Shown: piece after piece, positions 31,488 to 60,918 of the stretch
How the letters are laid out: each line of letters begins with the position of its first letter
Position numbering within the stretch: the stretch's first letter is position 1
Source: Sedimentibacter sp. SX930
GTDB lineage: Bacteria; Bacillota; Bacilli; Lactobacillales; Aerococcaceae
Direction of reading: 5' to 3'
Assembly (NCBI GenBank): GCA_002155105.1
Contig: MUZD01000001.1
Coordinates: 310,001 to 374,000 of the forward strand
DNA: 64,000 bases
Made by a program: the position numbers and the translations under genes
Notes under the pieces: generated by a model
The model's database searches: none
Told to the model about the DNA's origin: nothing
What the model saw: only the letters and a program-made list of their open reading frames with translations

Positions 31488-31519
31488 AATATAAATTCTG
31501 AGTAAGGGGATAAGGATAA

Positions 31520-32326: not shown

Positions 32327-32354
32327 CAAGAAGAGTGATGACGGAGGAAACAGA

Positions 32355-33956: not shown

Positions 33957-33976
33957 AAAAAACAGGATGGTGTCAG

Positions 33977-35779: not shown

Positions 35780-35830
35780 TGTTTTTCGCTAGATTAGCGT
35801 GTTCATCGATCATCGGGAAAGGAGCAAATA

Positions 35831-38032: not shown

Positions 38033-38060
38033 TGCCTGATGAAAGTGAGGAGAATTGACA

Positions 38061-39446: not shown

Positions 39447-39468
39447 AGTTGATTCAGCGGTATAAAAC

Positions 39469-39511
39469 ACAGAAAAAAGTTTGGGACTCCCAAACTTTTT
39501 TCTGTTTTATT
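39469..39511 (+). terminator. Terminator of the main glycoside operon
   Basis: ACAGAAAAAAGTTTGGG-ACT-CCCAAACTTTTTTCTGT: a perfect 17-bp stem with a 3-nt loop, then TTTTATT. Confidence 0.93.
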
Positions 39512-39560
39512 ACAATCCAGAATGACTATCGTAAAGATGTTTTTGAGATAAGGAGTCATT

Positions 39561-40733: not shown

Positions 40734-40746
40734 GGGGGGGAGAACT

Positions 40747-41409: not shown

Positions 41410-41499
41410 AAACTTCCCAAAGGTACAATATCAACTTTATCTCAATGCTCTTATAATAAAATTAAGCAGAAGAGCAATACGATAAGGAGAGGCGATTTC

Positions 41500-42294
41500 A
41501 TGGAAGTAAAAAATAAGGTAGTCGTGGTAACTGGTGGAGCAAATGGTGTGGGTAGGGAGTTGGTACTGACATTATTAAGTAAAGGAGCAAAGGTGGCAGC
41601 TGTTGATATCGACGAAATTGGACTGAGAGAAACATTTACAATTTCTGGAAAAAATCAAAACATGTCCATACATATAACGGATATCGCTGAGCTTGAACAA
41701 GTGGAAGCTTTACTTCAGGATGTCCTGGTTGAGCATGGTCAAATAGATGTTCTCATAAATAATGCTGGTATCATTCAGCCTTTTCTTAATGTAGATGAAA
41801 TCGGAAAAGAGAAGATTGATCAAATTATCAATGTGAATCTGCATGGGACTCTGAATATGGTTCGAGTTTTTTTACCTGAGCTAAAAAAACGACCTGAGGC
41901 TCATCTGACAAATATTTCGAGTATGGGAGGTTTTTTCCCGGTCCCTGGTCAAAGTATTTACGGCGCTTCCAAAGCGGCTGTAAAACTTTTGACGGAAGGG
42001 CTTTACGCCGAAATGGCGGGCACGAATATGGGTGTATCTGTCGTAATCCCTGGTGGTATAGCAACTAATATAATGAAAAATTCAGATTTAGGAATCAATG
42101 TTGAGGATGTTAATGTAAAAACCACTAAATTTCTATTAACGCCTAAAGAAGCGGCCAGACTGATTATTTCAAGTGTAGAAAAGAATAGATTCCGCATGTT
42201 TATCGGGAAAGATGCCAAGCTTATGAATGTTTTGTATAAAATAAGCCCTAAGTTGGCAATAAAGCTTATCGGAAAAGTGTTGCGAGTGAACTAG
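41500..42294 (+). CDS. Short-chain dehydrogenase/reductase (island SDR 2)
   Basis: A 264-residue SDR with TGGANGVGRELV, INNAGIIQPF, ISSMGGFFPVPGQ (catalytic Ser), YGASKAAVK (catalytic Tyr, Lys) and IPGGIATNIM. It ends in a basic segment resembling the acyl-CoA/steroid-type SDRs (SDR_c1). Its own promoter region (TATAAT near 41452) follows the response regulator gene, and AAGGAGAGG is the ribosome binding site. The partner SDR lies 19 nt downstream. The substrate is unknown; an alcohol on an aglycone is possible. Confidence 0.85.
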   Translation: MEVKNKVVVVTGGANGVGRELVLTLLSKGAKVAAVDIDEIGLRETFTISGKNQNMSIHITDIAELEQVEALLQDVLVEHGQIDVLINNAGIIQPFLNVDEIGKEKIDQIINVNLHGTLNMVRVFLPELKKRPEAHLTNISSMGGFFPVPGQSIYGASKAAVKLLTEGLYAEMAGTNMGVSVVIPGGIATNIMKNSDLGINVEDVNVKTTKFLLTPKEAARLIISSVEKNRFRMFIGKDAKLMNVLYKISPKLAIKLIGKVLRVN

Positions 42295-42313
42295 AAAGGT
42301 AAAGAGGTGCAAG

Positions 42314-43138
42314 ATGAAAGAGGTATGTGTGATAACTGGCGGAGGCAGCGGTATGGGTCTGGCAGCTGCTAAAGAGTTGGGTGACGAGTATCAAATTCTG
42401 ATTACCGGCCGAACAATCGAGAAGTTGCAAGCAGCGGTGGAAGACTTGAAAATGAAGGGGATAGAAGCAGAAGGATTTCCTTGTGATGTCTCTGACCGCA
42501 GAGCGGTTGAAAAATTAGCTGAATATGCGTCAAGTATGGGGAATATCAAGGTGGTTATACATGCAGCGGGGCTGTCGCCAAATATGGGCTCTGCGGAAAC
42601 AATCATGCGGATCAATGCTGTCGGAACCGTCAACGTTAATGAGGTTTTTTATGGAAAAGTAATCCAGAATGGCTGTATCATCAATGTCTCATCCATGTCG
42701 GGTCATCTCGTTCCAAAGATGGTCATGCCTTCAAAAAAGTATTCATTATCGACAACAAATATAGAATTATTTTTGAAGAAAATGATGAATAGAGTTTCCC
42801 TTTTTCCAAAGAAACATCAATCCGGGGTTTCATACAGCATATCCAAAAATTTTGTGATTTGGTACGCTCAAATGCATGCGGAAAAATTTGCTGAAAGAGG
42901 AATCAGAGTATTCTCGATTTCGCCGGGGCTTTTTGAAACTCCTATGGCTGACGCAGAAAGAGAGCTAAGCCAAGGATTTGTAGAAAAATGTGCAATCAAA
43001 CGCTACGGTAGGGTGGAAGAGATCGCTTATCTATTTAAAGTTTTATCAAATGAGAAAGCTGGCTATCTTACTGGCATCGATATTCTTTGCGATGGTGGAT
43101 GCATCGCTTCAGGAACCAAGGGACTTCTTAAAGTATAA
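42314..43138 (+). CDS. Short-chain dehydrogenase/reductase, hydroxysteroid-dehydrogenase-like (island SDR 3)
   Basis: A 274-residue SDR with TGGGSGMGLAAAK, VIHAAGLSPNMGSAE (in place of NNAG), INVSSMSGH, catalytic YSISKNFVIWYA and SPGLFETPMADAERE, and LTGIDILCDGGCIAS at the end. An insertion of about 35 residues lies between the Ser and Tyr motifs (KKYSLSTTNIELFLKK...). The family includes 3-alpha-hydroxysteroid/carbonyl reductase-like proteins of gut and soil bacteria. Co-transcribed with SDR 2. Whether it acts on sugar or a terpenoid/steroid aglycone cannot be told from sequence. Confidence 0.82.
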   Translation: MKEVCVITGGGSGMGLAAAKELGDEYQILITGRTIEKLQAAVEDLKMKGIEAEGFPCDVSDRRAVEKLAEYASSMGNIKVVIHAAGLSPNMGSAETIMRINAVGTVNVNEVFYGKVIQNGCIINVSSMSGHLVPKMVMPSKKYSLSTTNIELFLKKMMNRVSLFPKKHQSGVSYSISKNFVIWYAQMHAEKFAERGIRVFSISPGLFETPMADAERELSQGFVEKCAIKRYGRVEEIAYLFKVLSNEKAGYLTGIDILCDGGCIASGTKGLLKV

Positions 43139-43162
43139 AAGAAAATCTGATTACCTGAATCG

Positions 43163-43214
43163 GTCCCGAAATGACTCAATTAAGCGGAGTTGCTTCGGGA
43201 CTTTTTTTTTTTTT
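43163..43214 (+). terminator. Terminator after the SDR pair
   Basis: GTCCCGAA / TTCGGGAC with a 23-nt loop and a run of about 13 T. Confidence 0.85.
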
Positions 43215-43252
43215 GATATATTTGAATAGTATAATATTTCTTTGTAAAGAGA

Positions 43253-43287
43253 AAGAATGCGCTTTTTTATTATGATATTCTGTATTC
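43253..43287 (+). promoter_or_regulatory. Shared operator/promoter element, copy 2
   Basis: AAGAATGCGCTTTTTT followed by ATTATGATATTCTGTA. It aligns with 28276-28310 with four mismatches over about 29 nt. It lies about 70 nt before the GH1 start, so the two catabolic units appear co-regulated. Confidence 0.55.
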
Positions 43288-43354
43288 ACAAGGTGATGGA
43301 TGATTAAAAGTGAAAGTTGTAAGAACAAAATTTAAATAACAAGGAGCGAGTTAG

Positions 43355-44620
43355 ATGACATTTTTATTGGGAACGGCAACAGCTGCACATCAAGTGGAAG
43401 GAAATAACACGCACAGTGATTTTTGGATTCAGGAAAACATGGAACACACTATTTTTGTGGAACCGTCACTGGATGCTTGTGATCACTACAACCGCTTTGA
43501 AGAAGATATCCGATTAATGAAGGAAGCAGGTCTGAATGCTTACCGTTTTTCAATTGAGTGGGCGCGTATTGAACCCGAAGTGGGCAAATTCGATGAGAAT
43601 GAAATTGCTCATTATCGAAAAGTCTTAGAAAGTTGTCATGAGAACGGCATCGAGCCTATTGTTACCATGCATCATTTTTCGAGTCCAAAGTGGTTGATCA
43701 CTGAAGGCGGGTGGGAATCTGAGCATACTGTCGCATATTTTAAGAATTATTGCCAATTCGTTGCGGAGAATCTTGGCGAACTGTTCACGTACGTATGCAC
43801 AATCAATGAAGCGAACATGGGAATCCAACTGGCAGCCATCATTAAGCGTATCACGAAACAAATGGAATCCAATATACAAGTTGGGATAAATATGCCGGTG
43901 ATGAAGGACTATGAGCTACAAATGAATGAGACTACGAGGGCCTTTGACTTGAGTACTGGTGAAAATGCACATACTTTCTTGTCACAAAGAACATCTTTTG
44001 GGGATGAATTGATTATGCGGGCTCATGAAGCAGCACGGGATGCCATGAAAGCTGTTTGTCCTCATCTAAAAGTCGGTCTTTCACTCAGTCTGCATGATTT
44101 GCAAGCTGCTGATGATGCGCCAGAAACGATTAAAAATGTGGAAAAAGAATGGCAGGAAGAATTTTTGCATTATATGCCATACATCGAAAAAGATGATTTC
44201 TTGGGGATCCAAAATTATACGCGGGAGATTATCGGAGTGGATGGCATTCAAAAAGCGCCAGAAAATGCTGAATTGACCCAAATGAATTATGAGTATTATC
44301 CGGAAGCGCTGGAAAATGTCATACGTAAAGTTGCCGAATCATTTAAAGGGGAATTACTGGTAACGGAAAATGGAATCGGAACTGCAGACGATGAGCGTCG
44401 CGTTCAATTTATTGATACGGCACTTGCCGGAGTCAAAAATTGTATCGCTGATGGTATTCCTGTCCATGGTTATATGCACTGGAGTTTATTGGACAATTTT
44501 GAATGGCAGAAAGGCTACTCAATGACTTTCGGTTTGATTGAAGTGGATAGACAAACGCAAAAGCGGTATCCAAAACGTAGCCTTTCAGTGCTGGGCAGCT
44601 ATACCGACAAGTTTGCATGA
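43355..44620 (+). CDS. GH1 family beta-glycosidase
   Basis: A 421-residue intracellular retaining glycosidase. It starts FLLGTATAAHQVEGNN, as GH1 enzymes do (FLWGxAxAAxQxEG). Further motifs are YRFSIEWARIEPEVGKFDE, acid/base Glu in TINEANMG (about 152; canonical TxNEP, here A instead of P), nucleophile Glu in LLVTENGIG (about 335) and MHWSLLDNFEWQKGY. It is slightly shorter than most GH1 enzymes (about 450-480). CAAGGAGCGA is the ribosome binding site. It has its own promoter region with the island's shared element. It acts on beta-glucosides or related sugars; no phospho-sugar pocket is evident. Confidence 0.92.
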   Translation: MTFLLGTATAAHQVEGNNTHSDFWIQENMEHTIFVEPSLDACDHYNRFEEDIRLMKEAGLNAYRFSIEWARIEPEVGKFDENEIAHYRKVLESCHENGIEPIVTMHHFSSPKWLITEGGWESEHTVAYFKNYCQFVAENLGELFTYVCTINEANMGIQLAAIIKRITKQMESNIQVGINMPVMKDYELQMNETTRAFDLSTGENAHTFLSQRTSFGDELIMRAHEAARDAMKAVCPHLKVGLSLSLHDLQAADDAPETIKNVEKEWQEEFLHYMPYIEKDDFLGIQNYTREIIGVDGIQKAPENAELTQMNYEYYPEALENVIRKVAESFKGELLVTENGIGTADDERRVQFIDTALAGVKNCIADGIPVHGYMHWSLLDNFEWQKGYSMTFGLIEVDRQTQKRYPKRSLSVLGSYTDKFA

Positions 44621-44714: not shown

Positions 44715-45695
44715 TTATTTTTTCTTTTTCAGATCCATGTAGCCGTTGTAGACAGTCGCGAAGATTCCGAAGAGGATGCCGACGATCGGAAAGATGATCC
44801 AGGCGCTTGCCCAAGCGTAATACACGAAGCCGGCAATCAGATAAACGGCAGCGGCAAGCGGAAAGACAACCCCAGCGACGATACCGACCACCTTGTTCTT
44901 CTCTGCCTTATCCTTCGCAAACTCTCCGATCGACAGCAGTTTTTCGTACGTTTCGTCCTGAATGCCGTAGAAAATAAACAGGAAGACGCCGATTGCGATG
45001 AAGCTGAGCAGGAAAACAAGTGACAGACTGTTATCTTCCCCGATCAGGACGACGGAAAGCAACAAGGAAACGGGCGCCAGGATGCAAAGCGCGACCCCGA
45101 TTGCGACAGCAATGGCCAACCGCGGCCGGAAGGTTTTGTATTCAGTTTTAAGTCGGGCGTAGGTTGTGGCGTCGAGTTTAATTCGTTTCTGCTCCAGTTC
45201 AAATTGCTGTTCTTTCATGCCATAGATGATAAACAGCGAAACGCCGGCTGCGACAAAGAGGAACAGCGGCACAAGCGTCAGAATATCCAACAGTTCACTC
45301 GTACGGCCTCCATGAGCATTTTGATAGCCGGTAAGGTACTGGCCGAGGAACAGGCTGGCTGGGCCCATGATGCACAGGAAAACACCTGTTGCCATCGCCC
45401 AGGCAAAGTGATGGCGATGATCAATATATTCATCGACTTGTTCGGGAGTAAGGTAGACTTCATTATCGGGAATTTCTGCAGGTGAAGTGGGTATGTCCGA
45501 AACTGTGTAGTCATCAATATTGCCGTGAGCCGCTATGGCAGTGCTGATAGCCTCGTGCTCGCTTTTGCCTTCTGCTTTCAACTGTTGGTACTTGTCCTGC
45601 ATTTTCGTTAGCATGGCTTGCTTGCGGGCTAGCATCTCCGGTGTTTTTGGCAGATTTGCAAAGATGGATTCCACATAATTGCTGATTGTATTCAT
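44715..45695 (-). CDS. Membrane protein with N-terminal permease prefix (HAAS-like) domain
   Basis: A 326-residue protein. The N-terminal 65 residues (YVESIFANLPKTPEMLARKQ ... GKSEHEAISTAIAAHGNIDD) form the small helical 'permease prefix domain 1' seen in proteins paired with PadR-like regulators. The remainder has about six hydrophobic spans in three pairs separated by similar cytosolic blocks (IIYGMKEQQFELEQKRIKLD and IFYGIQDETYEKLLSIGEF), suggesting internal duplication, and ends DLKKKK. The ribosome binding site is weak. No adjacent PadR gene is present. Role unknown; possibly envelope-stress or transport-related. Confidence 0.75.
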   Translation of the reverse strand: MNTISNYVESIFANLPKTPEMLARKQAMLTKMQDKYQQLKAEGKSEHEAISTAIAAHGNIDDYTVSDIPTSPAEIPDNEVYLTPEQVDEYIDHRHHFAWAMATGVFLCIMGPASLFLGQYLTGYQNAHGGRTSELLDILTLVPLFLFVAAGVSLFIIYGMKEQQFELEQKRIKLDATTYARLKTEYKTFRPRLAIAVAIGVALCILAPVSLLLSVVLIGEDNSLSLVFLLSFIAIGVFLFIFYGIQDETYEKLLSIGEFAKDKAEKNKVVGIVAGVVFPLAAAVYLIAGFVYYAWASAWIIFPIVGILFGIFATVYNGYMDLKKKK

Positions 45696-45895
45696 AACGT
45701 TCTATCCCCATTCCTGATGATGATTCTGATATGGAAGTTTTTGTGAATGCCCCATACGGACCGTACATAATTAAAACTGATGATTGCTTTTATATCAACT
45801 AAAGTGTAGCACTTTTAGAGGGGGTGGGGAAATGATAAGAGCGGAGTGAATATAATCGAAGACGATAAAACAGCTCGAAAAAAGTAGCCCAATGA

Positions 45896-45935
45896 AAAAG
45901 CCGCCTTGCACATGATGATATGCAAGGCGGCTTTT
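45896..45935. terminator. Terminator of the symporter gene
   Basis: AAAAGCCGCCTTGCA / TGCAAGGCGGCTTTT, a 15-bp perfect stem with T runs on both strands. Confidence 0.92.
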
Positions 45936-45941
45936 ACTTTA

Positions 45942-47180
45942 TCATACTTCTTGAATAATCCCATGGTTGAAAATATCATAATTGATTGCATCTTCAGTTT
46001 TAGCGACAATCAGCGCTGTTGTAGTATCTGCAGTTACATTCAGGATCGTTCTCAACATTCCCACGAACCATTCTACCCCGGCAAAAAGAGCGATACTTTC
46101 AATCGGCAAGTTCATTTGCGGAACTACGATAGCCAAAGATACCAAGCCAGCTCCTGGAACCACGGCATTTGCCAAAGAAGCAAGCGCAGCCAAGAATGCA
46201 ATATAGATGTAGTTCGTCATTGAGTATTCCACACCATAAATCTGAGAGATCGTGATGACGGTGATCGCCATATGCATGGCAGAACCGTTACTGTTAAGGG
46301 TCATACCCAAAGGCAATACCAGTTTTGATACACGCTCTTCAATTCCCAATTTTTCACGGGCATCCTTCAATTCAGTCGGCAACGTAACCGCTGAAGATGT
46401 TGTAACGAGTGCCATGATTGCGATTTGCGTCATGTTGTATATCAGACGGAAAAAGCTGACCCGACAGAAGAATGATGTTAATAAGAACCATACAACGAGA
46501 TAAACTAAAGTTCCTAAAGCATAAACGCCTAAGTATTTTAATAATGGCAAGATAACTTGCAATCCCATATTTGCAATTGTTGAAGCGATAAGAGCAAATA
46601 TACCTATCGGAGCAATAAGCATAACCATGCTGATCAAACGCAAGATGATTTTATTGAAACGTTTAACAATGTCTAAAATCGTGTTCTCTTCATCCTCTAC
46701 TCTCACATAGCTCAAAGCCAAACCGAATAAAATTGAGAATACAATGACATGAACAATATTTCCTTCAGCCAAAGCTTGCATGATATTAGTAGGGAAGAAA
46801 TTTAAAATTGTTTCTCCAAATGACATTGCTGCTACTTCGGCCATTTTGAAACCTTCTCCGGAAATCGAAGCACTATCGATACCTGAACCTGGTTGGAACA
46901 ACACACCGAACAATACACCCATTCCACCAGCTAAAACGGAGGATATCAAAAAGATAGTAAATGTTTTAACCCCCATCGTTCCCAGTGTTTTTGGATTCAA
47001 TTCGCCAACAGCCTCAATAATCTGTCCCATTACCAACAATACAATGGACATTTGAATGAGACGTAGGAACAAGGTCCCGATGATGCTTAAAAAGCCGACG
47101 TTTTCACCGAAAAGCGACCCAACCACGACACCCATAATAGTCATGATGACGATTTGGGTCAATAAATTCATTTTCTTCAA
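45942..47180 (-). CDS. Dicarboxylate/amino acid:cation symporter (DAACS family)
   Basis: About 412 residues with the GltPh-like fold of eight helices and two re-entrant hairpins. Marks are FLRLIQMSIVLLVMGQIIEA, the serine-rich hairpin VTTSSAVTLPTE, the NMT-like stretch PLGMTLNSNGSAMHM, the ALASLANAVVPGAGLVSLAI hairpin and WFVGMLRTILNVTADTTTALIVAK (substrate Asp/Asn). Imports glutamate, aspartate or C4-dicarboxylates with H+ or Na+. The likely start is TTG at 47180 with AAAGGGG 8 nt upstream. The gene stands alone. Confidence 0.9.
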   Translation of the reverse strand: MKKMNLLTQIVIMTIMGVVVGSLFGENVGFLSIIGTLFLRLIQMSIVLLVMGQIIEAVGELNPKTLGTMGVKTFTIFLISSVLAGGMGVLFGVLFQPGSGIDSASISGEGFKMAEVAAMSFGETILNFFPTNIMQALAEGNIVHVIVFSILFGLALSYVRVEDEENTILDIVKRFNKIILRLISMVMLIAPIGIFALIASTIANMGLQVILPLLKYLGVYALGTLVYLVVWFLLTSFFCRVSFFRLIYNMTQIAIMALVTTSSAVTLPTELKDAREKLGIEERVSKLVLPLGMTLNSNGSAMHMAITVITISQIYGVEYSMTNYIYIAFLAALASLANAVVPGAGLVSLAIVVPQMNLPIESIALFAGVEWFVGMLRTILNVTADTTTALIVAKTEDAINYDIFNHGIIQEV

Positions 47181-47270
47181 TGTTGCAACCCCTTTCATAA
47201 GTGATGGCACTATTGTAAACTGTTTTTCAAGCGTTTACATTATACGAAGTGGCTAAAATAATAGAAATGT

Positions 47271-47396
47271 TTATCCACATTGTACCCTAGTCAAGGGGTT
47301 GACTTCTTGTTCATTTATCTTCGTATCGATGATGCGAACTTCCATAAATCCATGTTTCTTCAATAACTTTAAAACTTGTCGGGCTATTTGTGGCAT
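47271..47396 (-). pseudogene. Possible HicA-like toxin N-terminal remnant
   Basis: A 41-codon frame starting MPQIARQVLKLLKKHGF and then EVR, which resembles the first 20 residues of HicA mRNA-interferase toxins (KLLxKxGFxxVR). It lacks the following GSHxxF catalytic histidine region and has no evident ribosome binding site or hicB partner. It lies in the 348-bp gap before the TerB-C operon, where I see no other gene. It may be a decayed toxin fragment or a chance match. Confidence 0.3.
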
Positions 47397-47558
47397 TTCG
47401 GCAACTTATTTCGCCCCACATTTTTCCATATCATTTGAAGCCAAAGAGATGTGCTCTTAATCTAATCAGAATAGAACACGCGTTCTTGAACATGTGTCCC
47501 AATAGACGTATACTTAGGACGTATCTTTACTCTGACTTGGAAAGGGGGAACGTCCAAG

Positions 47559-49418
47559 ATGTTTGAATTTGTAAATAAAATATTCAAAAATAAGCAAATG
47601 ACCGAAGAAAAAAAATTATCGATCATCGAGTTGGTGAAGAACGAGGAGTCCTTCATCAATCCAAGAGATCTCATCGCAGAGCAGTGCGCTCTAAAAAAAG
47701 CTGAAACGAAAGTTGTGAAGGAATCATGGATCAGCTATGTTTCACCTCAAGTGAGAATGAATGACAATTTGACAGGACAATTGGAGGCAACGGTTGAGGC
47801 CTTATTTGAAATCCTATGCACAGTTGCTGATGTCGAATTGAAAAAGAAGCGCAAAAATATCAAACATGTGAAATATGAACGCTACTATTACCGTGTCACC
47901 ATCTTTGACGAAATTCATCGGCTGGCCAGAGAAGTGGTTTTTTCATTTTACCGACAGGACAATATGTACCCGGATATCTATTTTTCCTATGACCTACAAG
48001 CCATGTTGTCCAGGGATATCCAAAAAATCCTTACCCGCGAGGTAGAGGAGTATCGCAAGCATATGTCTGCTCCGGATGAGGAGACCAGAAGACGATTCGG
48101 GTTGACAACGTTTGGAACCAAAATCGTCTGGTGGGATCCATCAGGAGTGCTTCGGGACAAACAACTCTTTGACAAAAATGAAATGGATTATTTCAATCAG
48201 TTGTCAAAACGTGTGACGCGGTTTACGGAAATACCGGCTGTCATGAGCCTGTGCTTGTCGAAATACGTGGAGCTTTTGCAGCTCGTAGTGCTTGATCTGG
48301 AGGATGACTCCATCAAATGGAAGATCAAACCCAATAATTATTTCCGGAAATTTTTCCGGTTACCGCAGGATGATGGCCGTATCTGGGCGGAAACGTTCCG
48401 GCTGCCGACGGACCTGTACATCTTGGCAGAGAACACGGTCCGCCGCCAGGTAGAAGGGTTGCGTGTACTGCCCGAGGAGGAATACTTGCAGAATCTTAAA
48501 CAGTATTTTCCGGATGAAACGTTCCGGAAGATGCAAGTATGCCTGAGCCAAAAAGTTGATTTAGAGCTGGATTATCCGACCATCTCAGCCTTGCGCAACG
48601 TGAACAAGACTGTTTGGAATGAGGCCGCCAATCTGCTCATCAGTCAATCGCTTGGGCAGGTCAGTGGACTGCTTGAGGATGTTGTCAATGATCCGGATTT
48701 GAAAAAGATAGCCACGAAGGTGATCAAGCAAAGCGAAGAGCCGGACAAACGCATGCTGTTTATTTGCCTGATGGAACGTATGGAATTGCCGATTTCAAAA
48801 GTACTGCAAAAAGAGCGGGATGGCTTCATTCATCCAACCAGACAGACCGATTATCAGCAGTTGCTGATTGATGCAAATATCCAGATGGAAAGTTTGCCGA
48901 AGCTTCTAAATGAATGCACGCAACCGATGCGCAAGGAAATAAAGCTGGACACGGCATTAATCAACGCTTCACATTCTGCATTGGATACCATTATTGATAT
49001 GGTCGACACCTACTTGAGTGATGATGAAACCAGCGAAGGGCTGGATTCGGCTGTGAGCCTGAACATGTTTGCCGAAATTGAAATGTCATCGGTCGAGGAG
49101 CAAATTGAAGCAGAAAGTGTTGTCTCTACATCGGTATCTGCTACCGTAACTATTATTGAAGAACCGGAAAATCCGCACAGCAATCAGGAGTCTGAGCATA
49201 TGCTGTTCCTGAAACAGTTGGTGGTAGGCAACGGGATATCTTTGGATGATTTTAAAGTACACGCAAAAAATAAAGGGAAACTCCATCAGGCATACCTGAC
49301 GGAATTGAACGAAGTGCTTTATGAAATATTTGATGATCAAGTGTTGGTGATCAGTCACCAGCAAGTCATCATTGAAGAAGATTTTATGGAAGAAATGAGG
49401 GAATGGATCTATGGCTGA
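47559..49418 (+). CDS. TerB-C domain protein of a three-gene ATPase/helicase system
   Basis: A 619-residue cytosolic protein. The final 70 residues (FLKQLVVGNGISLDDFKVHA ... LNEVLYEIFDDQVLV) fit the TerB-C domain, which follows TerB modules in Ter-associated and phage-defence operons. The region before it (about 490-550) is acidic and low in complexity. The N-terminal 450 residues are mainly helical, with a basic patch KKKRKNIKHVKYERYYY, and I cannot assign them firmly. The ATG follows GAAAGGGGGAA. The stop overlaps the next start by 8 nt, so all three genes are translationally coupled. In relatives such proteins are thought to act as platforms for the ATPase and helicase. Confidence 0.75.
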   Translation: MFEFVNKIFKNKQMTEEKKLSIIELVKNEESFINPRDLIAEQCALKKAETKVVKESWISYVSPQVRMNDNLTGQLEATVEALFEILCTVADVELKKKRKNIKHVKYERYYYRVTIFDEIHRLAREVVFSFYRQDNMYPDIYFSYDLQAMLSRDIQKILTREVEEYRKHMSAPDEETRRRFGLTTFGTKIVWWDPSGVLRDKQLFDKNEMDYFNQLSKRVTRFTEIPAVMSLCLSKYVELLQLVVLDLEDDSIKWKIKPNNYFRKFFRLPQDDGRIWAETFRLPTDLYILAENTVRRQVEGLRVLPEEEYLQNLKQYFPDETFRKMQVCLSQKVDLELDYPTISALRNVNKTVWNEAANLLISQSLGQVSGLLEDVVNDPDLKKIATKVIKQSEEPDKRMLFICLMERMELPISKVLQKERDGFIHPTRQTDYQQLLIDANIQMESLPKLLNECTQPMRKEIKLDTALINASHSALDTIIDMVDTYLSDDETSEGLDSAVSLNMFAEIEMSSVEEQIEAESVVSTSVSATVTIIEEPENPHSNQESEHMLFLKQLVVGNGISLDDFKVHAKNKGKLHQAYLTELNEVLYEIFDDQVLVISHQQVIIEEDFMEEMREWIYG

Positions 49419-50739
49419 AAGCAAGCTGAGAAAGAAGGATGCCCAAATGATTATTGCCTCACTTGAGGCGGGTGTTGTTCCGGTAAAAGGGGTACAGCAT
49501 GTGTTGGTGGGCAGGAGCAATGAAGTCAAGGAAATCATTGACACCTTGCAAAAATTGGAGGACGGCAACAGTGATTTGCGGTTTTGGGTAGGCGATTTCG
49601 GCTCAGGCAAAAGTTTTGTTTTGCGGACGATCGAATCGTTGGCGCTGCAAAAGAATTTCGTCGTCTCCACGATCGACTTGACCCCGACGCGTCGTTTCTA
49701 TGATTCATCCGGGAAAGCGTTGGCGTTGTACAATGAAGTCGTCAATAAAATCGTCATCAAGAACAACCGCGACGGGAATGCCATCGAGACGATCGTCCAG
49801 CAATGGATCCAGGTTCTGCTCGAGCAGATTGCCGCGGAAAACAGCCTAACCGTTCCCGTTTTGATGGAAAAGGCCAATTGGAAATTGGTGGAGAATGCCA
49901 TCCTGAAGACGACGAATTCTTTTTATTCATCGGGGCTTTCCTATGAATTCGGACAAGCGCTGATGAAATATTTCGAAGGGATTGCCGGCGACAATATGTC
50001 CCTTCAGATTGAGGCGATTCGTTGGATCCGCGGGGATATCACGACGAAAACGGAAGCCTCCAAAGAGTTGGGCATCAAGAACGTCATCAACGACTCGAAC
50101 TATCTCACCGCATTGAAAAATCTGGCGGAATTATTCCTTAAGATCGGCTACAAGGGATTTGTCATAAATTTTGATGAATCAGTCAATCTGTACAAATTAC
50201 CGCGTTCGTTGACCCGGGAAAAAAATTATGAAATGATCCTCAATCTTTACAACGAAACGAAAACCAATGAAGCTAAAGGCTTGTTCATCAATTTTGGCGC
50301 AACGAAGCACACGGTTTATGACGAACGAAGAGGGTTGGCCAGCTATGGCGCTTTGAAAACACGCTTCGGGAACGGATTGATGAAAAATAAGGACTATGTC
50401 AATGTGAACAGCACCGTCATCGATCTGAAGCCGCTGACAGCGGAGGAGATCTTTATCCTTTTGACCAAGCTGTTGGAAATATACAATACGGCCTATCAAA
50501 CAACGCTGACGGTGAAGGACAGCGAAATCAAGCAATACATGGAAGACCAGTTGAACCGACCAGGAGCTGCGGCATTTTTGACGCCGCGATCCGTCATCAA
50601 GGACTATATCGAAATTCTGTCCTTGCAGCGCCAGAACCCGGACCATTCTTTCGCTCAGATCCTTGCCGATCGCTTCGGCAGAAAGCCTTCAGTTGTGGCG
50701 AAGGACGCAGATGACCACGATGAAATAGAGGTTTACTGA
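49411..50739 (+). CDS. BrxD-like P-loop ATPase (DUF2791 family)
   Basis: A 442-residue AAA-type ATPase. VPVKGVQHVLVGRSNEVKEI leads into Walker A WVGDFGSGKSFVLRTIE (about 65), and a Walker B-like FVINFDESVNLYKL is near residue 255, followed by GATKHTVYDERRGLASYGAL. The family is the BREX BrxD / DUF2791 group, which pairs with Lhr-like helicases. It overlaps the TerB-C gene (8 nt) and the helicase gene (TGATG), a strong sign of one complex. No PglZ, PglX methylase or BrxL is in the window, so this is not a complete BREX locus. Confidence 0.82.
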   Translation: MAESKLRKKDAQMIIASLEAGVVPVKGVQHVLVGRSNEVKEIIDTLQKLEDGNSDLRFWVGDFGSGKSFVLRTIESLALQKNFVVSTIDLTPTRRFYDSSGKALALYNEVVNKIVIKNNRDGNAIETIVQQWIQVLLEQIAAENSLTVPVLMEKANWKLVENAILKTTNSFYSSGLSYEFGQALMKYFEGIAGDNMSLQIEAIRWIRGDITTKTEASKELGIKNVINDSNYLTALKNLAELFLKIGYKGFVINFDESVNLYKLPRSLTREKNYEMILNLYNETKTNEAKGLFINFGATKHTVYDERRGLASYGALKTRFGNGLMKNKDYVNVNSTVIDLKPLTAEEIFILLTKLLEIYNTAYQTTLTVKDSEIKQYMEDQLNRPGAAAFLTPRSVIKDYIEILSLQRQNPDHSFAQILADRFGRKPSVVAKDADDHDEIEVY

Positions 50740-52814
50740 TGCAAGCATTTGACAGTCTCAGCAGAGACATCCAGCAGTACATCTATGATAAAGGGTGGCC
50801 AAGCTTGACGCGCATCCAAAATGCTGCCATCAAACAGGTTGCCAATACCGATCATAACATTATTCTGTCAGCTCCGACGGCATCGGGGAAAACGGAAGCG
50901 GCATTCATTCCGGCGCTGAACAGCGTGGAAGATTGGGATACGGGGCTGAAGGTGCTGTACATCTCTCCTTTGAAAGCACTGATCAATGATCAATTTCAGC
51001 GCATCAGCGAACTCAGTGCGTATTTGGATATACCGATCACGCCCTGGCATGGTGAGGTTTCCCAGGCTCAGAAAAAGAAAGTTGTCAATCAACCAAAAGG
51101 TATTCTGTTGATCACACCGGAATCGATAGAGGGCATGCTGGTGAATCGTCCTGGCGAGGCGCAGCACCTCTTTAAAGGGGTGGAATGGATCATCATCGAT
51201 GAGTTGCACAGTTTTCTTGGGACGGAACGTGGTGTTCATTTGCAATCGTTGCTGCAACGGATCAGCCAATTCATGCAAGCGCCACGTTTCATCGCGATGA
51301 GTGCAACCTTGAACAAGAAGGATTTTGGTTACGCGAAAGCCTTCTTCGGCAGCTATCGGGACACGGATATTCTCGTGGACCGCGATAAAAATGATCTGCT
51401 CGTCACGATAGACTACACGAGTGGTGAGGCGGGTCCCTTTGTCGCAAGGGAATCCTTGGCAGCGATCTATCAGTATTCCAAAACGGAAACGATGCTGATT
51501 TTTCCGAATTCCCGCAACAGAGTGGAAGAAATCACCCATAAATTGGATAAGATGGCAAAAAAAGAGAACGCGCCCATCCGCTATTTTGCCCATCACTCAT
51601 CGGTGGACAAACTTTTGCGTGAAGAAGTGGAATTTTTTGCCAAAAATAATGAGGATCAGCTGTTCACGATCACCTGCACCTCCACCTTGGAATTGGGAAT
51701 AGATATCGGATCGGTGGACAGTGTGGTGCAGTACGGTTCTCCTCCATCCACTTCTTCGTTGAGCCAAAGACTGGGGCGCAGCGGACGGAGAAACCACCAA
51801 AGCATCCTTCACATTGTGGAAGATGACTCCTGGGAAATGCTTCAGACCTATGCCGCATTGGATTTGCTGGAACGGGGTGAATTGGATGCAACAGAAATGA
51901 TTGAGACTCCCTACAATGCTTTGGCGCATCAGGTGATGGCAATCCTTTTCCAAAAGGTCAGTATGCCGATGACGCAATTGTTGCAGCTGAATAAAACCTT
52001 TCCGGTCTGGTCAGCGATTTCGGATGCAGATTTGGCGCTGTTGATTGATTATATGGTTGAAAAAGACTTCATCGAAATCATGGATGAAGAGGCGATTGTC
52101 GGTTTGGAGGGAGAGCGTCTGCTGCGTTCCAGAGATTTCTATGCACTGTTTTTCACTACAAGTGATTTTTCTGTCCATTACCAGCATGAGCGCATCGGCA
52201 GTCTGCCGTTCACACCCGATATCCAGATCGAAAGCAAAATTCTGTTGGCGGCCAGGGTATGGATCGTGAAAGATATCGATGTGAAGGCTAAGCGCATCAT
52301 GGTGGAAATGACGAAAGAAGGAAGACCCCCGAAATTCATCAGCGACGAAGGCTTCGTCTCCAACGAAGTGCGTGAGAATATGGAAAAGCTCTTGCGGACG
52401 GGAGATTATCTGACCCTGAACAATGACAAGATCACCCGCGATTTTAATTTTCTGAAGAGTGAACTATACTACGATGACGGGAACTATTGGTATGAGGACA
52501 ACCAGACGAATATAGGCATCGTGACATTCAGGGGGACTAAGTTCAATATCGCGTTGCTGCTGCTCATCAAGAGCATCGCAACTGAGGGAGAAAAATATCA
52601 ACTGCATGACAAACACTCCTTGATCACGGGTCCCGACATAAAAAGGATGGTGGAACGACTTGCTGGAGGGGATGTTTCTCTGGATAATGTCGTAGCCTAT
52701 CTGGAGAAAAACGAGAAGGCCATCGAAGAGTTGGCGGCCCATCAAAAATTCATGCAATTGGTTCCCGCAAGCTTGAAAATCAAGTGGATCCTGAACAACT
52801 TCTTTTCGATTTGA
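50739..52814 (+). CDS. Lhr/BrxHI-like superfamily 2 DEAD/DEAH helicase
   Basis: A 691-residue helicase. Q-motif region GWPSLTRIQNAAIKQ, Walker A SAPTASGKTEAA (about 49), KVLYISPLKALINDQ (Ia), Walker B IIDELHSF, AMSATLNK (III), TCTSTLELGIDIGSVD (V) and QRLGRSGRR (VI) are all intact. A C-terminal region of about 300 residues resembles BrxHI and the core of Lhr rather than RecQ or RecG. The start ATG overlaps the ATPase stop. It probably unwinds DNA or DNA-RNA as the effector of the three-gene system. A terminator follows at 52830. Confidence 0.9.
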   Translation: MQAFDSLSRDIQQYIYDKGWPSLTRIQNAAIKQVANTDHNIILSAPTASGKTEAAFIPALNSVEDWDTGLKVLYISPLKALINDQFQRISELSAYLDIPITPWHGEVSQAQKKKVVNQPKGILLITPESIEGMLVNRPGEAQHLFKGVEWIIIDELHSFLGTERGVHLQSLLQRISQFMQAPRFIAMSATLNKKDFGYAKAFFGSYRDTDILVDRDKNDLLVTIDYTSGEAGPFVARESLAAIYQYSKTETMLIFPNSRNRVEEITHKLDKMAKKENAPIRYFAHHSSVDKLLREEVEFFAKNNEDQLFTITCTSTLELGIDIGSVDSVVQYGSPPSTSSLSQRLGRSGRRNHQSILHIVEDDSWEMLQTYAALDLLERGELDATEMIETPYNALAHQVMAILFQKVSMPMTQLLQLNKTFPVWSAISDADLALLIDYMVEKDFIEIMDEEAIVGLEGERLLRSRDFYALFFTTSDFSVHYQHERIGSLPFTPDIQIESKILLAARVWIVKDIDVKAKRIMVEMTKEGRPPKFISDEGFVSNEVRENMEKLLRTGDYLTLNNDKITRDFNFLKSELYYDDGNYWYEDNQTNIGIVTFRGTKFNIALLLLIKSIATEGEKYQLHDKHSLITGPDIKRMVERLAGGDVSLDNVVAYLEKNEKAIEELAAHQKFMQLVPASLKIKWILNNFFSI

Positions 52815-53089: not shown

Positions 53090-53803
53090 ATGCAAAAATA
53101 TGTCATCATATCCAATGATATTCGGAATAAAATCGTAAACGGAGAGTACGTTGCCAATCAACAGATTCCCTTCGAAAAAGATATGTGTACTCATTACAAT
53201 GCAAGCAAAATGACGGTAAAAAAGGCATTGGACATCTTGGTAGCGGAAGGATTGGTCATCAAGCGGAGAGGTTCCGGTACTTTTGTGAAGGACTTGAATC
53301 TGGAGGAAATCAAGCGCGTGACGATGGCGAATCAATTCCGCGGCATGACTGCGCTTTATGCCGGGAAAAAGGTCCACAGCAAAATACTGAATTTTTCGAT
53401 TGTGAAGGTGCCGGAGGTTGCAGCCAAAAAGTTGAATATTTCGCTTGGCAGCTTTGTGTATGACATCTATCGGGTACGCTATTTGGAAGACGAACCAATC
53501 GTAATGGAAAAAATCTACATGCCGATTGATCTGATACCGAACATCAAGGATAAAAATCTCAAAGGCTCGATCTATGAATATATTGAAAATGATCTAAAGT
53601 TGAACATTCAGAGCGCGCATAGGACGGTTGCTGTTCGCAAAGCCACTGATTTTGAGGCGGAGGAGCTTGGACTGGACAAGGGTGATCCAGTGGCGGTAGC
53701 CGAGCAGGTCGGCTATCTCGATACTGGCAATGCGTTTGAGTTCTCCACAGCTGTCCATCGCTATGATAAGTTTGCCGTCGAACTCGTTTTGACGCGCAAT
53801 TGA
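53090..53803 (+). CDS. GntR/HutC family transcriptional regulator
   Basis: A 237-residue repressor-type protein. The N-terminal winged helix (MQKYVIISNDIRNKIVNGEY ... CTHYNASKMTVKKALDILVA, RRGSGTFVKD) is followed by the UTRA ligand domain (about 85-235, VYDIYRVRYLEDEPIVMEKI ... FEFSTAVHRYDKFAVELV). UTRA members sense sugar phosphates or amino-acid derivatives. No transport or catabolic operon is directly adjacent, so the target is unclear. The ribosome binding site is GAGAGGTGC. Confidence 0.9.
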   Translation: MQKYVIISNDIRNKIVNGEYVANQQIPFEKDMCTHYNASKMTVKKALDILVAEGLVIKRRGSGTFVKDLNLEEIKRVTMANQFRGMTALYAGKKVHSKILNFSIVKVPEVAAKKLNISLGSFVYDIYRVRYLEDEPIVMEKIYMPIDLIPNIKDKNLKGSIYEYIENDLKLNIQSAHRTVAVRKATDFEAEELGLDKGDPVAVAEQVGYLDTGNAFEFSTAVHRYDKFAVELVLTRN

Positions 53804-53852
53804 ACGAAAGCTCTGTAAGATCGGTTTCGATGTGGTGACTCGATAGCTTGAC

Positions 53853-53879
53853 CTCCGGCGAAGCCGTCGTTCACCTGAG
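53853..53879. repeat. Solitary CTCCGGCGAAGCCG element
   Basis: A 14-base identity to unit 2 of the array at 20993, here as a single copy in the gap after the GntR gene. The opposite arm (CCTGAG) pairs only weakly, so this looks like a degraded unit. Confidence 0.4.
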
Positions 53880-53911
53880 CAGGACACATCACTGAAATTT
53901 TGGATGTAAAG

Positions 53912-53943
53912 AAGGGTCGCCTCATTTTCGAGGCGACCCTTTT
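53912..53943. terminator. Bidirectional terminator
   Basis: AAGGGTCGCCTC-ATTTTC-GAGGCGACCCTT with flanking A and T, between GntR (+) and NUDIX (-). Confidence 0.92.
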
Positions 53944-53952
53944 ACGCTTTTC

Positions 53953-54369
53953 TTAGTTTTTCATGCCTTCGATGAAGTCGATGGCGGACTGCAGGATGCT
54001 CTTGTCGTTGTCGTACGTGATGGCTTGCAAAGCTTCGTTGAAAGGCATCCAGGCGAAGTCGGTGACTTCGGCATCCTGTTTTTCGATCGTTTCCGTATGG
54101 GCGAAAGCGATGAAGTAGACGACTTCTTTGATTATGCCGGGAGCGGGGGAGTAGCTGACGGATTTCCGGAAAGCGGTGCTTAGATCGGTGCTCAAGCCGG
54201 TTTCTTCCTTGATTTCCCTCAGAGCCGTTTCGACTTCTGTTTCGCCGTCCTCGACATGGCCTTTCGGGAAAGCCCAATGGCCGCCGTTTTCATGTTTGAT
54301 CAATAATACTTTTCGGTTCGTGTTATCGGGGGAGAGCACGATGGCTCCGCATGATTTTTCTGATTTCAT
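53953..54369 (-). CDS. NUDIX hydrolase
   Basis: A 138-residue pyrophosphohydrolase. The Nudix box GHVEDGETEVETALREIKEE (from about residue 37) has the GxxxxxEx7REUxEExGU pattern intact. The N-terminus EKSCGAIVLSPDNTNRKVLL and W-A-F-P-K-G resemble the MutT/Ap4A hydrolase type of Firmicutes. It cleaves a nucleoside diphosphate linked to some moiety; the substrate cannot be fixed. It is followed on the minus strand by the shared terminator. A fragment of a related gene lies beyond the DegV gene at 55404. Confidence 0.9.
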   Translation of the reverse strand: MKSEKSCGAIVLSPDNTNRKVLLIKHENGGHWAFPKGHVEDGETEVETALREIKEETGLSTDLSTAFRKSVSYSPAPGIIKEVVYFIAFAHTETIEKQDAEVTDFAWMPFNEALQAITYDNDKSILQSAIDFIEGMKN

Positions 54370-54397
54370 AGTTTATGCTCCATTCATTTGTTTCATT

Positions 54398-55288
54398 TTA
54401 CTTTTCCAAAAACGCAGGGCGTCTATCATATCTTTCCGGCAATTGAGATAGGGCGAAGACACCGACACCGCCGATGCCGAGATGAACGCCCAGAACCGCG
54501 CTTACTCTTAATACGATAAAGGAGGCTTCAGGCACTGCCTCGCTCAGCATTGCTTTGAGTGTTTGTGCGATTTCTGGATCGCCCACATGGCTGATGACAA
54601 CGAGTTGATCTTGATAGGGACCGATATGGTCGACCGTTTTTTTGATGATATGTTTGTAGACACGCTTATGTCCGCGCAGGAGTTGGTCGATCACGATTTT
54701 GCCTGCCTTAACGGTCAACAAAGGCTTGATGTTCAGATTGTCACCGATGAGGCTGGTTACTTTATTGATGCGCCCGCCAATCTGGAGCCAGTCCAGATTG
54801 GCGATTGTGAAGGAATAGGAAGTATACGCAACGATCTCTCGGATAGTTTGGGCAACTTCATCATGGGGATGGCCTTTATCCAACAAGTTTAGGGCTTGAA
54901 TGGCAGCCAAGCTAGCGCCGCCGCAACCACCTTGCGAATCGATCAAGGTCAGCTTCATCTCCGGGAATTCTTCCCGGTACATCTCAAATACTTGATGGGC
55001 TACCGCATGTGTTCCAGACATCGCGCTTGAGAAAGACAAATAAATCAGATCTTCGTTGGCTTTGCGGTTGCGGTCCAATATTTCCAACAGGCTGGCGATG
55101 TCAATCTGTGAAGTCTGTGGCATCTCTCCTTTTCGCATCACTTCGTAGACGCGTTCCAAATCGATTTCGACGCCGTCCTTGTAGCTTTTGCCATCGATGA
55201 TGATGTTTAACGGCAAGTACTCCAGTTTGGGATGCTTGCGCATCGCTTCGTTTAGGTCACATGTTGAATCTATTATTAATTTCGTCAA
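54398..55288 (-). CDS. DegV family fatty-acid-binding protein
   Basis: A 296-residue protein with LIIDSTCDLNEAMRKHP at the start and YLPLNIIIDGKSYKDGVEID, PQTSQID, YLSFSSAMSGTH, LIDSQGGCGG and LKPLLTVKAGKI, which are DegV/FakB family marks. FakB proteins deliver fatty acids to the kinase FakA for phosphorylation and phospholipid synthesis. No fakA gene is in the window. Transcribed just upstream of the NUDIX gene on the same strand (28-nt gap), so possibly co-transcribed. Confidence 0.93.
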   Translation of the reverse strand: MTKLIIDSTCDLNEAMRKHPKLEYLPLNIIIDGKSYKDGVEIDLERVYEVMRKGEMPQTSQIDIASLLEILDRNRKANEDLIYLSFSSAMSGTHAVAHQVFEMYREEFPEMKLTLIDSQGGCGGASLAAIQALNLLDKGHPHDEVAQTIREIVAYTSYSFTIANLDWLQIGGRINKVTSLIGDNLNIKPLLTVKAGKIVIDQLLRGHKRVYKHIIKKTVDHIGPYQDQLVVISHVGDPEIAQTLKAMLSEAVPEASFIVLRVSAVLGVHLGIGGVGVFALSQLPERYDRRPAFLEK

Positions 55289-55403
55289 AATTTCACTCCT
55301 TATTTTTCAGCAATAACTACCTGATCTGGTTTGAGGCGCAACCGATGCGCGTTGCGCTTAGATGAACGGTGTGGCCGCTGTTGTTGTGCCGTTTCCGGTT
55401 GGA

Positions 55404-55493
55404 TTAGTTCTCCAATCCTTCGACAAAATCGCTTGCGGTCTGCAGGATATATTTATCGTTGGTATAGGTGACTTTTTCCATAGCTTCATTCAT
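55404..55493 (-). pseudogene. NUDIX hydrolase C-terminal remnant
   Basis: A 29-codon frame starting MNEAMEKVTYTNDKYILQ and ending SDFVEGLEN then stop. It aligns without gaps to the last 29 residues of the NUDIX protein at 53953 (FNEALQAITYDNDKSILQ ... IDFIEGMKN). The Nudix box is absent, so this is a leftover of a second copy. It lies on the other side of DegV. The rest of the 490-bp gap holds the NCS2 promoter and PurBox-like sites. Confidence 0.75.
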
Positions 55494-55678
55494 TTAATAT
55501 AGTATAACAAAAATTAGGACTACATCGCATCCGTATTTACTAATGATCTATAAAGAATAATTCGCTATTTCAATACAAACGGCCGGGGAAATCTTGATAA
55601 TGTTCGCTTCTAACTCCGATTAATCCCTAAAATGTGAAGATTCTCATAATGAAAGCCCTTATAATTCGTTTTTTACAC

Positions 55679-55765
55679 TTTACAATTGTATGTGATATCG
55701 ATATAATTTTATTTGTCGTTAATAAACGAATTATATTTTGTTTTGCAATCATTAATGTTCGTTAT
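55679..55765 (+). promoter_or_regulatory. Promoter and two PurBox-like sites of the purine permease gene
   Basis: TTTACA (55679-55684), 17-nt spacer, TATAAT (55702-55707). Downstream are ATAAACGAATTAT (55722-55734) and its inverted counterpart AATGTTCGTTAT (55754-55765). These resemble paired PurR boxes, whose core is CGAA...TTCG, with one or two mismatches each. Position after the start site suggests repression by PurR. Confidence 0.55.
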
Positions 55766-55778
55766 CAGGAGGAGAAAC

Positions 55779-57092
55779 ATGGAAGAGAAAGTACATACAG
55801 GCCTGACTTACGGTGTGGAAGATAAACCGGATTTAGGCACGACAATTGTTTTAGGATTTCAGAACGTCATCACCGCTTTTGGTGGTTTAGTGGCAGTACC
55901 GCTTATCATTGCCGGAATCGCAGGTTTCGGGGTTGAGGATACTGCTTATATGGTCAGCGCGGCGCTTTTGGCTTCGGGTATCGTTTCAATCATTCAATCC
56001 AAAGGTTTCGGTCCGAAATGGTTCCGCGTCGGAGCGGGCTTGCCGACGATTATGGGAACTGATTTTGCATTTGTGGCACCGGCTGCTGCCGTCATCGGTG
56101 CTGGCGGCATCACTGCCTACTTCGGTGGTACGATGCTGGGTGCTTTACTTGAAGTTGGTTTAAGTTATTTTGTAAAACCATTGTTAAAATTTTTCCCGCC
56201 GGTAGTGACCGGATCGGTTATCTCCTTGATGGGGATGACGCTGATGTCCGTTGCGATGGGCTGGGCAGGCGGTGGCTTCGGATCTGAGGATTTCGGTAAT
56301 CCGATGAATATCGGTATCGCAGTGCTCGTGTTCCTGATCATCGCTTTGATCAACCATTACGGACCAAGCAGAATCGCGCCAGCCGCTGTTCTGATCGGTG
56401 CCGCAATCGGTTATGTCGTCTGCATTCCGTTGGGGATGGTCGACTTCGGCCAGGTAGTTGCCGCTGAATGGTTTGCCTTACCACAATTCTTCAAATTTGG
56501 AGTGCCTGATTTCAAGCTTGAATACGCGATTCCTTTCGTATCCGGCTATCTCGTAACCGTCATTGAAACAGTCGGCGTTATGCAGACTTTGGGTGCCGTT
56601 ACGGAAACAAAACTGACGGATGAAAGAATTGCTGCCGGTGTCCGTGCGGATGGTTTCGGTTCGTTCATCGCGCCTTTCATCGGGTCCGGTCCAGCTGCAA
56701 CTTTCAGCCAAAATGCCGGATTGATCCCGTTGACCCGCAATGCTTCCCGTAAAGTAGCCATCATGGGCGGTATCATCATGATCGTGATGAGCCTGTTCCC
56801 TAAATTTGCTACCCTGATTTCAATCATGCCGCAACCTGTTTTGGGTGGTGCAGGCATCTTGATGTTCGGTACAGTTGCCGCTGCCGGTGTGCAATCACTG
56901 TCCCGCGTTGAATTCAACAACCGCAACATGATCATCGTCGCTTCTGCGTTGGGTGTCGGTCTGGGAGTTTCCTTTGTTCCCGATACAGTGGCACAATTGC
57001 CAGGCATCTTGAGCGGATTGTTCTCTTCCGGTATCTCGGCAGGTACGATCGTTGCATTGGTCTTGAACATCATCCTGAAAGAAAAAGTCTGA
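55779..57092 (+). CDS. NCS2 family nucleobase (xanthine/uracil-type) permease
   Basis: A 437-residue, about 12-14 span cation symporter. Motifs are GFQNVITAFGGLVAVPLII at the start, GLPTIMGTDFAFVAP, the substrate-helix GYLVTVIETVGVMQT with the conserved Glu, and SGPAATFSQNAGLIPLTRNA (NCS2 signature; here NAG where many have NNG). The start is ATG at 55779 after AGGAGGAG; the frame is open 22 codons upstream without a ribosome binding site. PurBox-like sites and a guanine deaminase gene 1 kb away point to purine (xanthine or guanine) transport rather than uracil. Confidence 0.88.
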   Translation: MEEKVHTGLTYGVEDKPDLGTTIVLGFQNVITAFGGLVAVPLIIAGIAGFGVEDTAYMVSAALLASGIVSIIQSKGFGPKWFRVGAGLPTIMGTDFAFVAPAAAVIGAGGITAYFGGTMLGALLEVGLSYFVKPLLKFFPPVVTGSVISLMGMTLMSVAMGWAGGGFGSEDFGNPMNIGIAVLVFLIIALINHYGPSRIAPAAVLIGAAIGYVVCIPLGMVDFGQVVAAEWFALPQFFKFGVPDFKLEYAIPFVSGYLVTVIETVGVMQTLGAVTETKLTDERIAAGVRADGFGSFIAPFIGSGPAATFSQNAGLIPLTRNASRKVAIMGGIIMIVMSLFPKFATLISIMPQPVLGGAGILMFGTVAAAGVQSLSRVEFNNRNMIIVASALGVGLGVSFVPDTVAQLPGILSGLFSSGISAGTIVALVLNIILKEKV

Positions 57093-57604: not shown

Positions 57605-57756
57605 AATAGCATCCTCCAATAGTATATTATTTTCATTCTAACATGAATAGGTCATATAGGCATTTTATTTACCCGAAGCGGAACTTATTAAAGGCGTTGA
57701 GGGACCCGTATGGGAAGTACTGATTAAAAAAACGCAGCAACAAACGATAAGGTAGT

Positions 57757-57887
57757 TGTCCGATAACCCGAAAGAATCGGACATCCCGGCCTTCTACGAT
57801 GATGCGGATGTCCGATAACCCGAAAGAATCGGACAACTAGGCCCTGTACGATGATGCGGATGTCCGATAACCCGAAAGAATCGGACA
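57757..57887. repeat. Three-unit hairpin array, 52-nt period
   Basis: TGTCCGAT-AACCCGAAAGA-ATCGGACA occurs identically at 57757, 57809 and 57861. The two 25-nt intervals are also related (both end TACGATGATGCGGA). Each unit forms a perfect 8-bp stem. It lies in the 412-bp gap between convergently placed VOC and guanine deaminase ends, which holds no supported gene. Nearly identical intervals exclude a CRISPR array. Confidence 0.8.
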
Positions 57888-57920
57888 ACCAGCCCCCGGG
57901 CAACCACGTTACGAAAATAC

Positions 57921-60893: not shown

Positions 60894-60918
60894 CAATGAG
60901 AAGTCAGAATGTCGATCG

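Follow-up and report, generated by a model that had tools for sequence, protein, structure and literature searches.

A Shango operon of Trichococcus without a detectable TerB_N domain, and the rapid divergence of its SngA subunit

Shango is a three-gene system encoding a TerB-like protein together with an ATPase and a DEAD/DEAH helicase (PMC10250203). The Shango of Pseudomonas aeruginosa PA14, once cloned, reduced plating 10-100-fold for many phages, though not for all, and gave protection in liquid culture; a Shango of Escherichia coli from another group is cited in the same article (PMC10250203). As of 2024 its mechanism was listed as unknown, and phages were not known to encode any anti-Shango enzyme (PMC10855318). 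Its helicase SngC has been grouped with BrxHI, DruE and DpdJ in a potentially distinct clade of superfamily 2 (SF2) (PMC12278908). BrxD and BrxHI are in turn described as a tightly linked dyad in an article whose main text does not contain the word Shango (PMC12839542). Here we analyze three overlapping genes found in a 64,000 nt stretch of DNA (“the window”, positions 310,001 to 374,000 of contig MUZD01000001.1) from Sedimentibacter sp. SX930, a genome that falls in the genus Trichococcus. On profile evidence it is nearly certain that they form a Shango anti-phage system (SngABC), already known and not new, and by the same kind of evidence it is a variant, from a Shango clade in whose SngA no TerB_N domain can be detected. 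An earlier note on this DNA had put the trio forward as a candidate system for defense or DNA stress that looked stand-alone; a role in defense agrees with the anti-phage activity of the family (PMC10250203), but the trio is not a new stand-alone system, PADLOC identifying it as Shango. The Shango label is known; to it we add the variant without detectable TerB_N and a general and simple evolutionary pattern in which SngA is the fast-changing subunit.

The open reading frame (ORF) list of the window gives three overlapping ORFs on the + strand, of 619, 442 and 691 amino acids (aa), that span 47559-52814: sngA (47559-49418), sngB (49411-50739) and sngC (50739-52814). The overlaps are 8 nt between sngA and sngB (49411-49418) and 1 nt between sngB and sngC (50739), so that both extent and overlaps are as first read. 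In PADLOC the first protein matched SngA (2.4e-16, covering residues 203-617 only; the same profile matches 24/24 aligned relatives), the second SngB (8.5e-142, with BrxD second at 2.3e-43) and the third SngC (7.3e-186, with BrxHI second at 4.5e-112). The family names BrxD and BrxHI used before are thus right as to relatedness but are not the best fit. With Pfam, SngA gave TerB_C only (residues 454-613, 3.2e-11, 44.1 bits against a cut-off of 26.3), SngB BrxC_BrxD (9.4e-117) and SngC DEAD/Helicase_C. SngB, a P-loop ATPase of the BrxC/BrxD family, has its Walker motifs in GDFGSGKS at 61 and FVINFDE at 250, and the SF2 helicase SngC has the helicase motifs APTASGKT at 45, DELH at 154, SAT at 188 and QRLGRSGR at 343. 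The trio hence has what defines Shango: a three-gene operon of TerB-like protein, ATPase and DEAD/DEAH helicase, matches to all three profiles, a TerB-type module (the TerB_C of SngA), and ATPase and helicase motifs in SngB and SngC. What defines BREX (bacteriophage exclusion) type 2 is missing, as none of PglZ, PglX, PglW and BrxC was found among the scanned window genes (25.1-59.4 kb) and SngB falls far below the NCBIfam BrxD equivalog (148.1 bits, cut-off 350). The earlier picture of a TerB-C protein with a BrxD-related ATPase and a BrxHI-related helicase in one operon, and no other BREX genes beside it in the window, is borne out.

The variant became apparent when SngA and SngB were compared among relatives. 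In the SngA group of the window all 24 aligned proteins had TerB_C and none (0/24, Pfam) had TerB_N; among the other SngAs TerB_N was present in 18/18 of one alignment and in 22/28 of a mixed set, three members of which belong to the window group. The TerB domain proper (PF05099) was not detected in the window SngA, and in only 3/18 of the sample from the other clade. The same division is seen in the midpoint-rooted SngB tree (70 tips), in which TerB_N was scored by a custom profile: 27/27 loci on the window side are without it and 40/43 opposite them have it; in the remaining three the SngA ORF is 309-349 aa long and may be truncated. Support for the node that unites the 43 tips is 0.975, and the window SngB does not belong to the enterobacterial SngB clade. 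By both features, TerB_N in SngA and position of SngB, the window operon lies outside the canonical TerB_N-type Shango clade. These loci are the best 80 of at least 540 relatives retrieved with an alignment as query in which the window protein came first, a biased sampling. When profiles of the whole SngA groups were compared with each other only the TerB_C part aligned (probability 97.6), and the N-terminal parts gave no match between groups (probability 1.4). The Pfam domain TM2 was found in 3/24 SngAs of the window group, and by eye the loci L049, L063 and L064 have TM2-like membrane segments ahead of the SngA body; judging from these sequences, some Shango may be membrane-tethered.

The structural model of SngA (mean predicted local distance difference test, pLDDT, 77.7) consists of three parts. 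Residues 55-487 (47721-49019) form a mostly helical, fast-evolving body, which reached a mean pLDDT of 86.2 when modeled alone with AlphaFold2. Residues 488-543 (49020-49187) are probably a disordered linker, with pLDDT <50, and are the most variable stretch of the protein (lowest identity in alignment columns 481-560). Residues 544-619 (49188-49415) make up the C-terminal end of TerB_C, which is conserved and resembles a winged helix in the model. Neither the whole model nor the body alone had a Foldseek match in the PDB at E<=0.001. The N-terminal part of ca. 450 residues, for which the earlier note had suggested a novel activity as well as profile and structure checks, thus showed in these checks no detectable TerB_N homology and no clear structural match.

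The most consistent feature of the operon is the speed at which SngA changes compared with its two partners. We used 13 genomes of Trichococcus, G000 being that of the window. The pairwise ratio of nonsynonymous to synonymous substitution rates (dN/dS) was 0.191 for sngA (12 rows), 0.038 for sngB (12 rows) and 0.051 for sngC (11 rows), with mean protein identities of 77, 96, and 94% and dS of 0.66, 0.49, and 0.57, respectively; all three genes are under purifying selection. The changes in SngA are spread over the whole protein, with only the last ca. 60 columns clearly conserved, and pN/pS was well below 1 in every segment of 40 columns, the highest value (0.57) being in the linker. Between G000 and G100, which the database assigns to one species, identity is 75.0% for SngA, 97.5% for SngB and 99.3% for SngC. 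Against the background of their syntenic ORFs (464 kb compared with 429 kb) SngA was the third lowest of those of at least 100 aa (n = 273, median 99.3%) and the lowest of the 136 of at least 300 aa, the next having 87.5%. Only two ranked below it, a Vsr-type endonuclease and an ORF of 209 aa that is perhaps not a real gene. This Vsr endonuclease (L141:7300-7770, 55% between the two strains) and a PLD-DUF3427 helicase (L134:2660-5551, 87.5%) join SngA in the group of syntenic genes that diverge most within the species. In the comparison with another species, G001, the window SngA (75.3%) was second lowest of 199 ORFs of at least 200 aa. In the sngB (support 0.988) and sngC (1.000) trees these strains are sister tips; in the sngA tree they lie apart. 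Their DNA identity is 72-87% in sngA, steps up to about 95% in sngB and reaches about 99% in sngC.

The pattern extends well beyond the genus. From 54 of the 80 fetched loci (SngA >400 aa, adjacent SngC) we obtained 235 pairs with SngB identities of 60-99%, not independent of each other, and SngA was less conserved than both SngB and SngC in all 235, with means of 35.2% (SngA), 70.5% (SngB), and 63.6% (SngC); SngB was above SngC in 187. Among five enterobacterial loci SngA was the least conserved protein in 9/10 pairs, the tenth, formed by the two most similar loci (Klebsiella L190 and E. coli L192), having 97.5, 97.0, and 94.5% for SngA, SngB and SngC. The last 65 residues of SngA were more conserved than the rest in 87/94 pairs from five groups. 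We did not find such a difference in pace, SngA being fast and SngB-SngC slow, described in the Shango literature, as judged by titles and portions of text.

We lean toward the interpretation that this is a Shango, of the clade without detectable TerB_N, in which SngA acts as a variable recognition subunit on a conserved SngB-SngC DNA motor. That it changes far faster than the two motor proteins suggests SngA as the phage-facing part of Shango. We infer a mechanism in which SngB, an ATPase of the BrxC/BrxD family, would oligomerize and load or activate the helicase SngC on invading or phage-replicating DNA, by analogy with what has been proposed for BrxD-BrxHI (PMC12839542). SngA would dock on this motor through its conserved TerB_C tail, and its variable helical body would meet a trigger specific to the phage, either one of its proteins or one of its DNA-protein structures, or an inhibitor, upon which the motor would be released. 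Counter-pressure from phages on the body would then make SngA alleles diverge and be swapped between strains while the motor is kept. More tentatively, Shango as a whole could be an immune system with one interchangeable, fast-evolving recognition subunit, SngA, set on a conserved ATPase-helicase motor, and existing in two deep lineages whose SngA bodies are either unrelated or diverged beyond recognition; the type without TerB_N would then be a separate phage-sensing fold that is attached to the motor by the same TerB_C tail. The contrast between a fast SngA and a slow SngB-SngC, together with 13 natural alleles in a single genus, makes SngA the first subunit to swap and the recognition target of Shango directly testable.

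The distribution of the operon in the genus is peculiar for a defense system. SngA was found in 13/13 genomes (11/11 of those of high quality) and SngB in 12/12 members searched, own genome included, with the genes always in the order A-B-C, so that the trio is not a chance association. In the 11 other species SngB is ca. 95-97% and SngC (intact copies) 91-97% identical to the window protein. Outside the genus SngB appeared in 5/48 genomes of other genera of the family and 2/40 from the rest of the order; in the family relatives L038, L039, L040, and L042 the gene order is B-C-A instead of A-B-C. As anchors of the locus we took, upstream, a transporter gene or a gene of 326 aa (44715-45695) and, downstream, a set of GntR/UTRA regulator, NUDIX, DegV and xanthine/uracil permease genes (53090-57092, identified with Pfam), the order of which is kept in most relatives. 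Both flanks are visible in eight genomes (G000, G001, G003, G004, G005, G009, G011, G100); in G006 only the upstream anchor was seen, and in G002 and G010 the downstream one together with a contig end upstream (G002 also with the SDF symporter gene of the window upstream), and in G007 and G008 a contig ends upstream and an esterase ORF follows downstream that resembles that of G006 (AXE1 in Pfam for the G006 copy). A fixed place in all relatives with no variability, along with no effect on phage or plasmids, had been named by the earlier note as a finding that would refute its reading; the operon is indeed in all 13 genomes and at the same place in the eight, but the neighboring island and SngA itself are highly variable. 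As sequenced, sngA of G011 has one in-frame stop and sngC of G007, in a genome that is 51% complete, a frameshift. An IS110-family transposase lies between sngC and the GntR gene in G003 (L029:12522-13772), where there is also a HicB-like antitoxin ORF divergently upstream of sngA (L029:5941-6369, - strand, Pfam 3.9e-11). Judged by similar beginnings, similar ORFs are found in L027, L028, L032, L034, L035, and L037. In six relatives the HicB-like ORF precedes sngA in divergent orientation, and in G002 it comes after sngC; no such ORF occurs there in the window.

Next to the operon, the interval between the 326-aa gene and sngA (45696-47558) behaves as a hotspot that in the relatives contains BREX and/or CRISPR-Cas (clustered regularly interspaced short palindromic repeats and associated proteins) genes or no defense genes at all. 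In the window it contains only an SDF symporter gene (45942-47210, - strand, Pfam), and since the intervals of many relatives do have defense genes, the operon stands alone in the window genome but not in them. PADLOC assignments were made for G003 and G005, the upstream ORFs of other relatives being recognized by their beginnings and lengths. G003 has BrxA, BrxB, BrxC, PglX, PglZ, SoFic and Cas9 plus a CRISPR array, and the ORFs of G001 and G100 are like these in length, beginnings and order. G005 has Cas3c, Cas8c and Cas7c (type I-C Cas) with a CRISPR array, and G011 looks alike; G002 and G008 have CRISPR repeats near a contig end. Altogether, repeats were seen upstream of the operon in 7/13 genomes and not in G000, G004, G006, G007, G009, and G010, the sequence of G007 and G010 ending within 3 kb. 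The BREX island at L187:3931-14939 has BrxA, BrxB, BrxC, PglX and PglZ followed by SoFic and Cas9, with no ORF of BrxL size (at least 150 aa) between PglZ and SoFic. On the far side of the 326-aa gene, window positions 27005-44620 hold a cluster of regulator, alpha-L-rhamnosidase, GH35-like, GH43, GH2, MFS, histidine kinase and SDR genes plus a GH1 gene. This insertion separates the 326-aa gene from the transporter genes, its close neighbors in G100 and other relatives. Tandem units of ca. 52 bp with a short hairpin (GTCCGAT...ATCGGAC) at 57755-57893 and about 60917-61050 belong to a dispersed element resembling repetitive extragenic palindromes; 44 places in the genome match 57750-57900 and many are found in G100 and G003.

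Several alternatives have to be weighed against the recognition role of SngA. That the three genes are what is left of a BREX type 2 system is suggested by the similarity to BrxD and BrxHI and by the tight linkage of these two (PMC12839542), but we find it extremely improbable, given that both proteins score far higher as SngB and SngC, that no PglZ, PglX, PglW or BrxC is among the scanned genes and that a TerB_C protein neighbors SngB in many phyla. We also consider it unlikely, although somewhat less so, that it is a housekeeping system for DNA repair or replication stress: its occurrence in all genomes of the genus, at a single locus to the extent that contigs reveal it, and the core-like evolution of SngB and SngC would fit such a role, but it is patchy in the rest of the family and order, it adjoins CRISPR-Cas and BREX islands, and relatives of the helicase occur on 64 plasmid records (helicase only, so not all need be Shango). 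A serious rival, although we rather doubt it, is that SngA is a structural platform under weak constraint, its divergence reflecting tolerance and not recognition, with specificity residing in SngC or in DNA structure. What keeps it serious is that pN/pS is below 1 throughout SngA; besides, variation runs along the whole protein, the most variable part is the probably disordered linker and only 13 columns are invariant in 16 diverse SngAs. Yet none of the 135 other syntenic ORFs of at least 300 aa diverges as much as SngA between the two strains, and between two species SngA ranks second lowest of 199 of at least 200 aa, values that are extreme if it were an ordinary scaffold; moreover its tail stays conserved and its body is predicted with good confidence.

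The replacement of sngA between G000 and G100 might have been simple hitch-hiking, an island recombination with a break that fell by chance in sngA-sngB. We regard this as evenly balanced, and it is compatible with a recognition role. In G100 the interval between the 326-aa gene and sngA has ORFs like the BREX-SoFic-Cas9 island of G003 and also a CRISPR array; that of the window has the symporter gene only. The stepped DNA identity fits as well, but hitch-hiking leaves unexplained that SngA is the most divergent protein in all 235 pairs. For SngA as a variable recognition subunit, to which we still incline, there are other points on the negative side. With pN/pS below 1, changes spread and no single patch, SngA gives no sign of recurrent positive selection at the 40-column scale, and a weakly constrained scaffold would also be the fastest subunit. 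The SngA of G100 compared with G001 (83.5%, ninth lowest of 170) is not extreme, the sngA replacement is one event in one pair that came together with an exchange of the neighboring island, and the 235 pairs are not independent. The broken copies in G011 and G007 may mean that the operon is dispensable, or may be assembly errors, and presence throughout a genus is unusual for a defense system.

Among known systems, the Ter-linked operons with TerB_N/TerB/TerB_C proteins share the TerB_C module with the window SngA. They differ in that TerB_N and TerB were not found in the window SngA, and its partners here are SngB and SngC (no search of the genome for TerD-type genes was made). With BREX type 2 the operon has in common a homologous pair of ATPase and helicase, but SngB and SngC score lower as BrxD/BrxHI, no BREX core gene is among the scanned window genes and the pair has a TerB-C partner instead. 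Druantia DruE, Dpd DpdJ and Hachiman HamB are, like SngC, SF2 helicases of defense systems; they work with partners other than SngA and SngB, and their PADLOC profiles score more weakly. Compared with described Shango, the enterobacterial SngA is made up of TerB_N, TerB and TerB_C (769-775 aa, three proteins), the first two of which are not detectable in the window SngA. Shango is found in every Trichococcus genome analyzed here, and in E. coli 469/5426 complete genomes match at least 80% of a Klebsiella sngB-sngC query, a DNA-level count that misses divergent copies. With the Shango of E. coli and P. aeruginosa PA14 the window operon shares the gene order, TerB-like protein, ATPase and helicase, and matches to all three PADLOC profiles.

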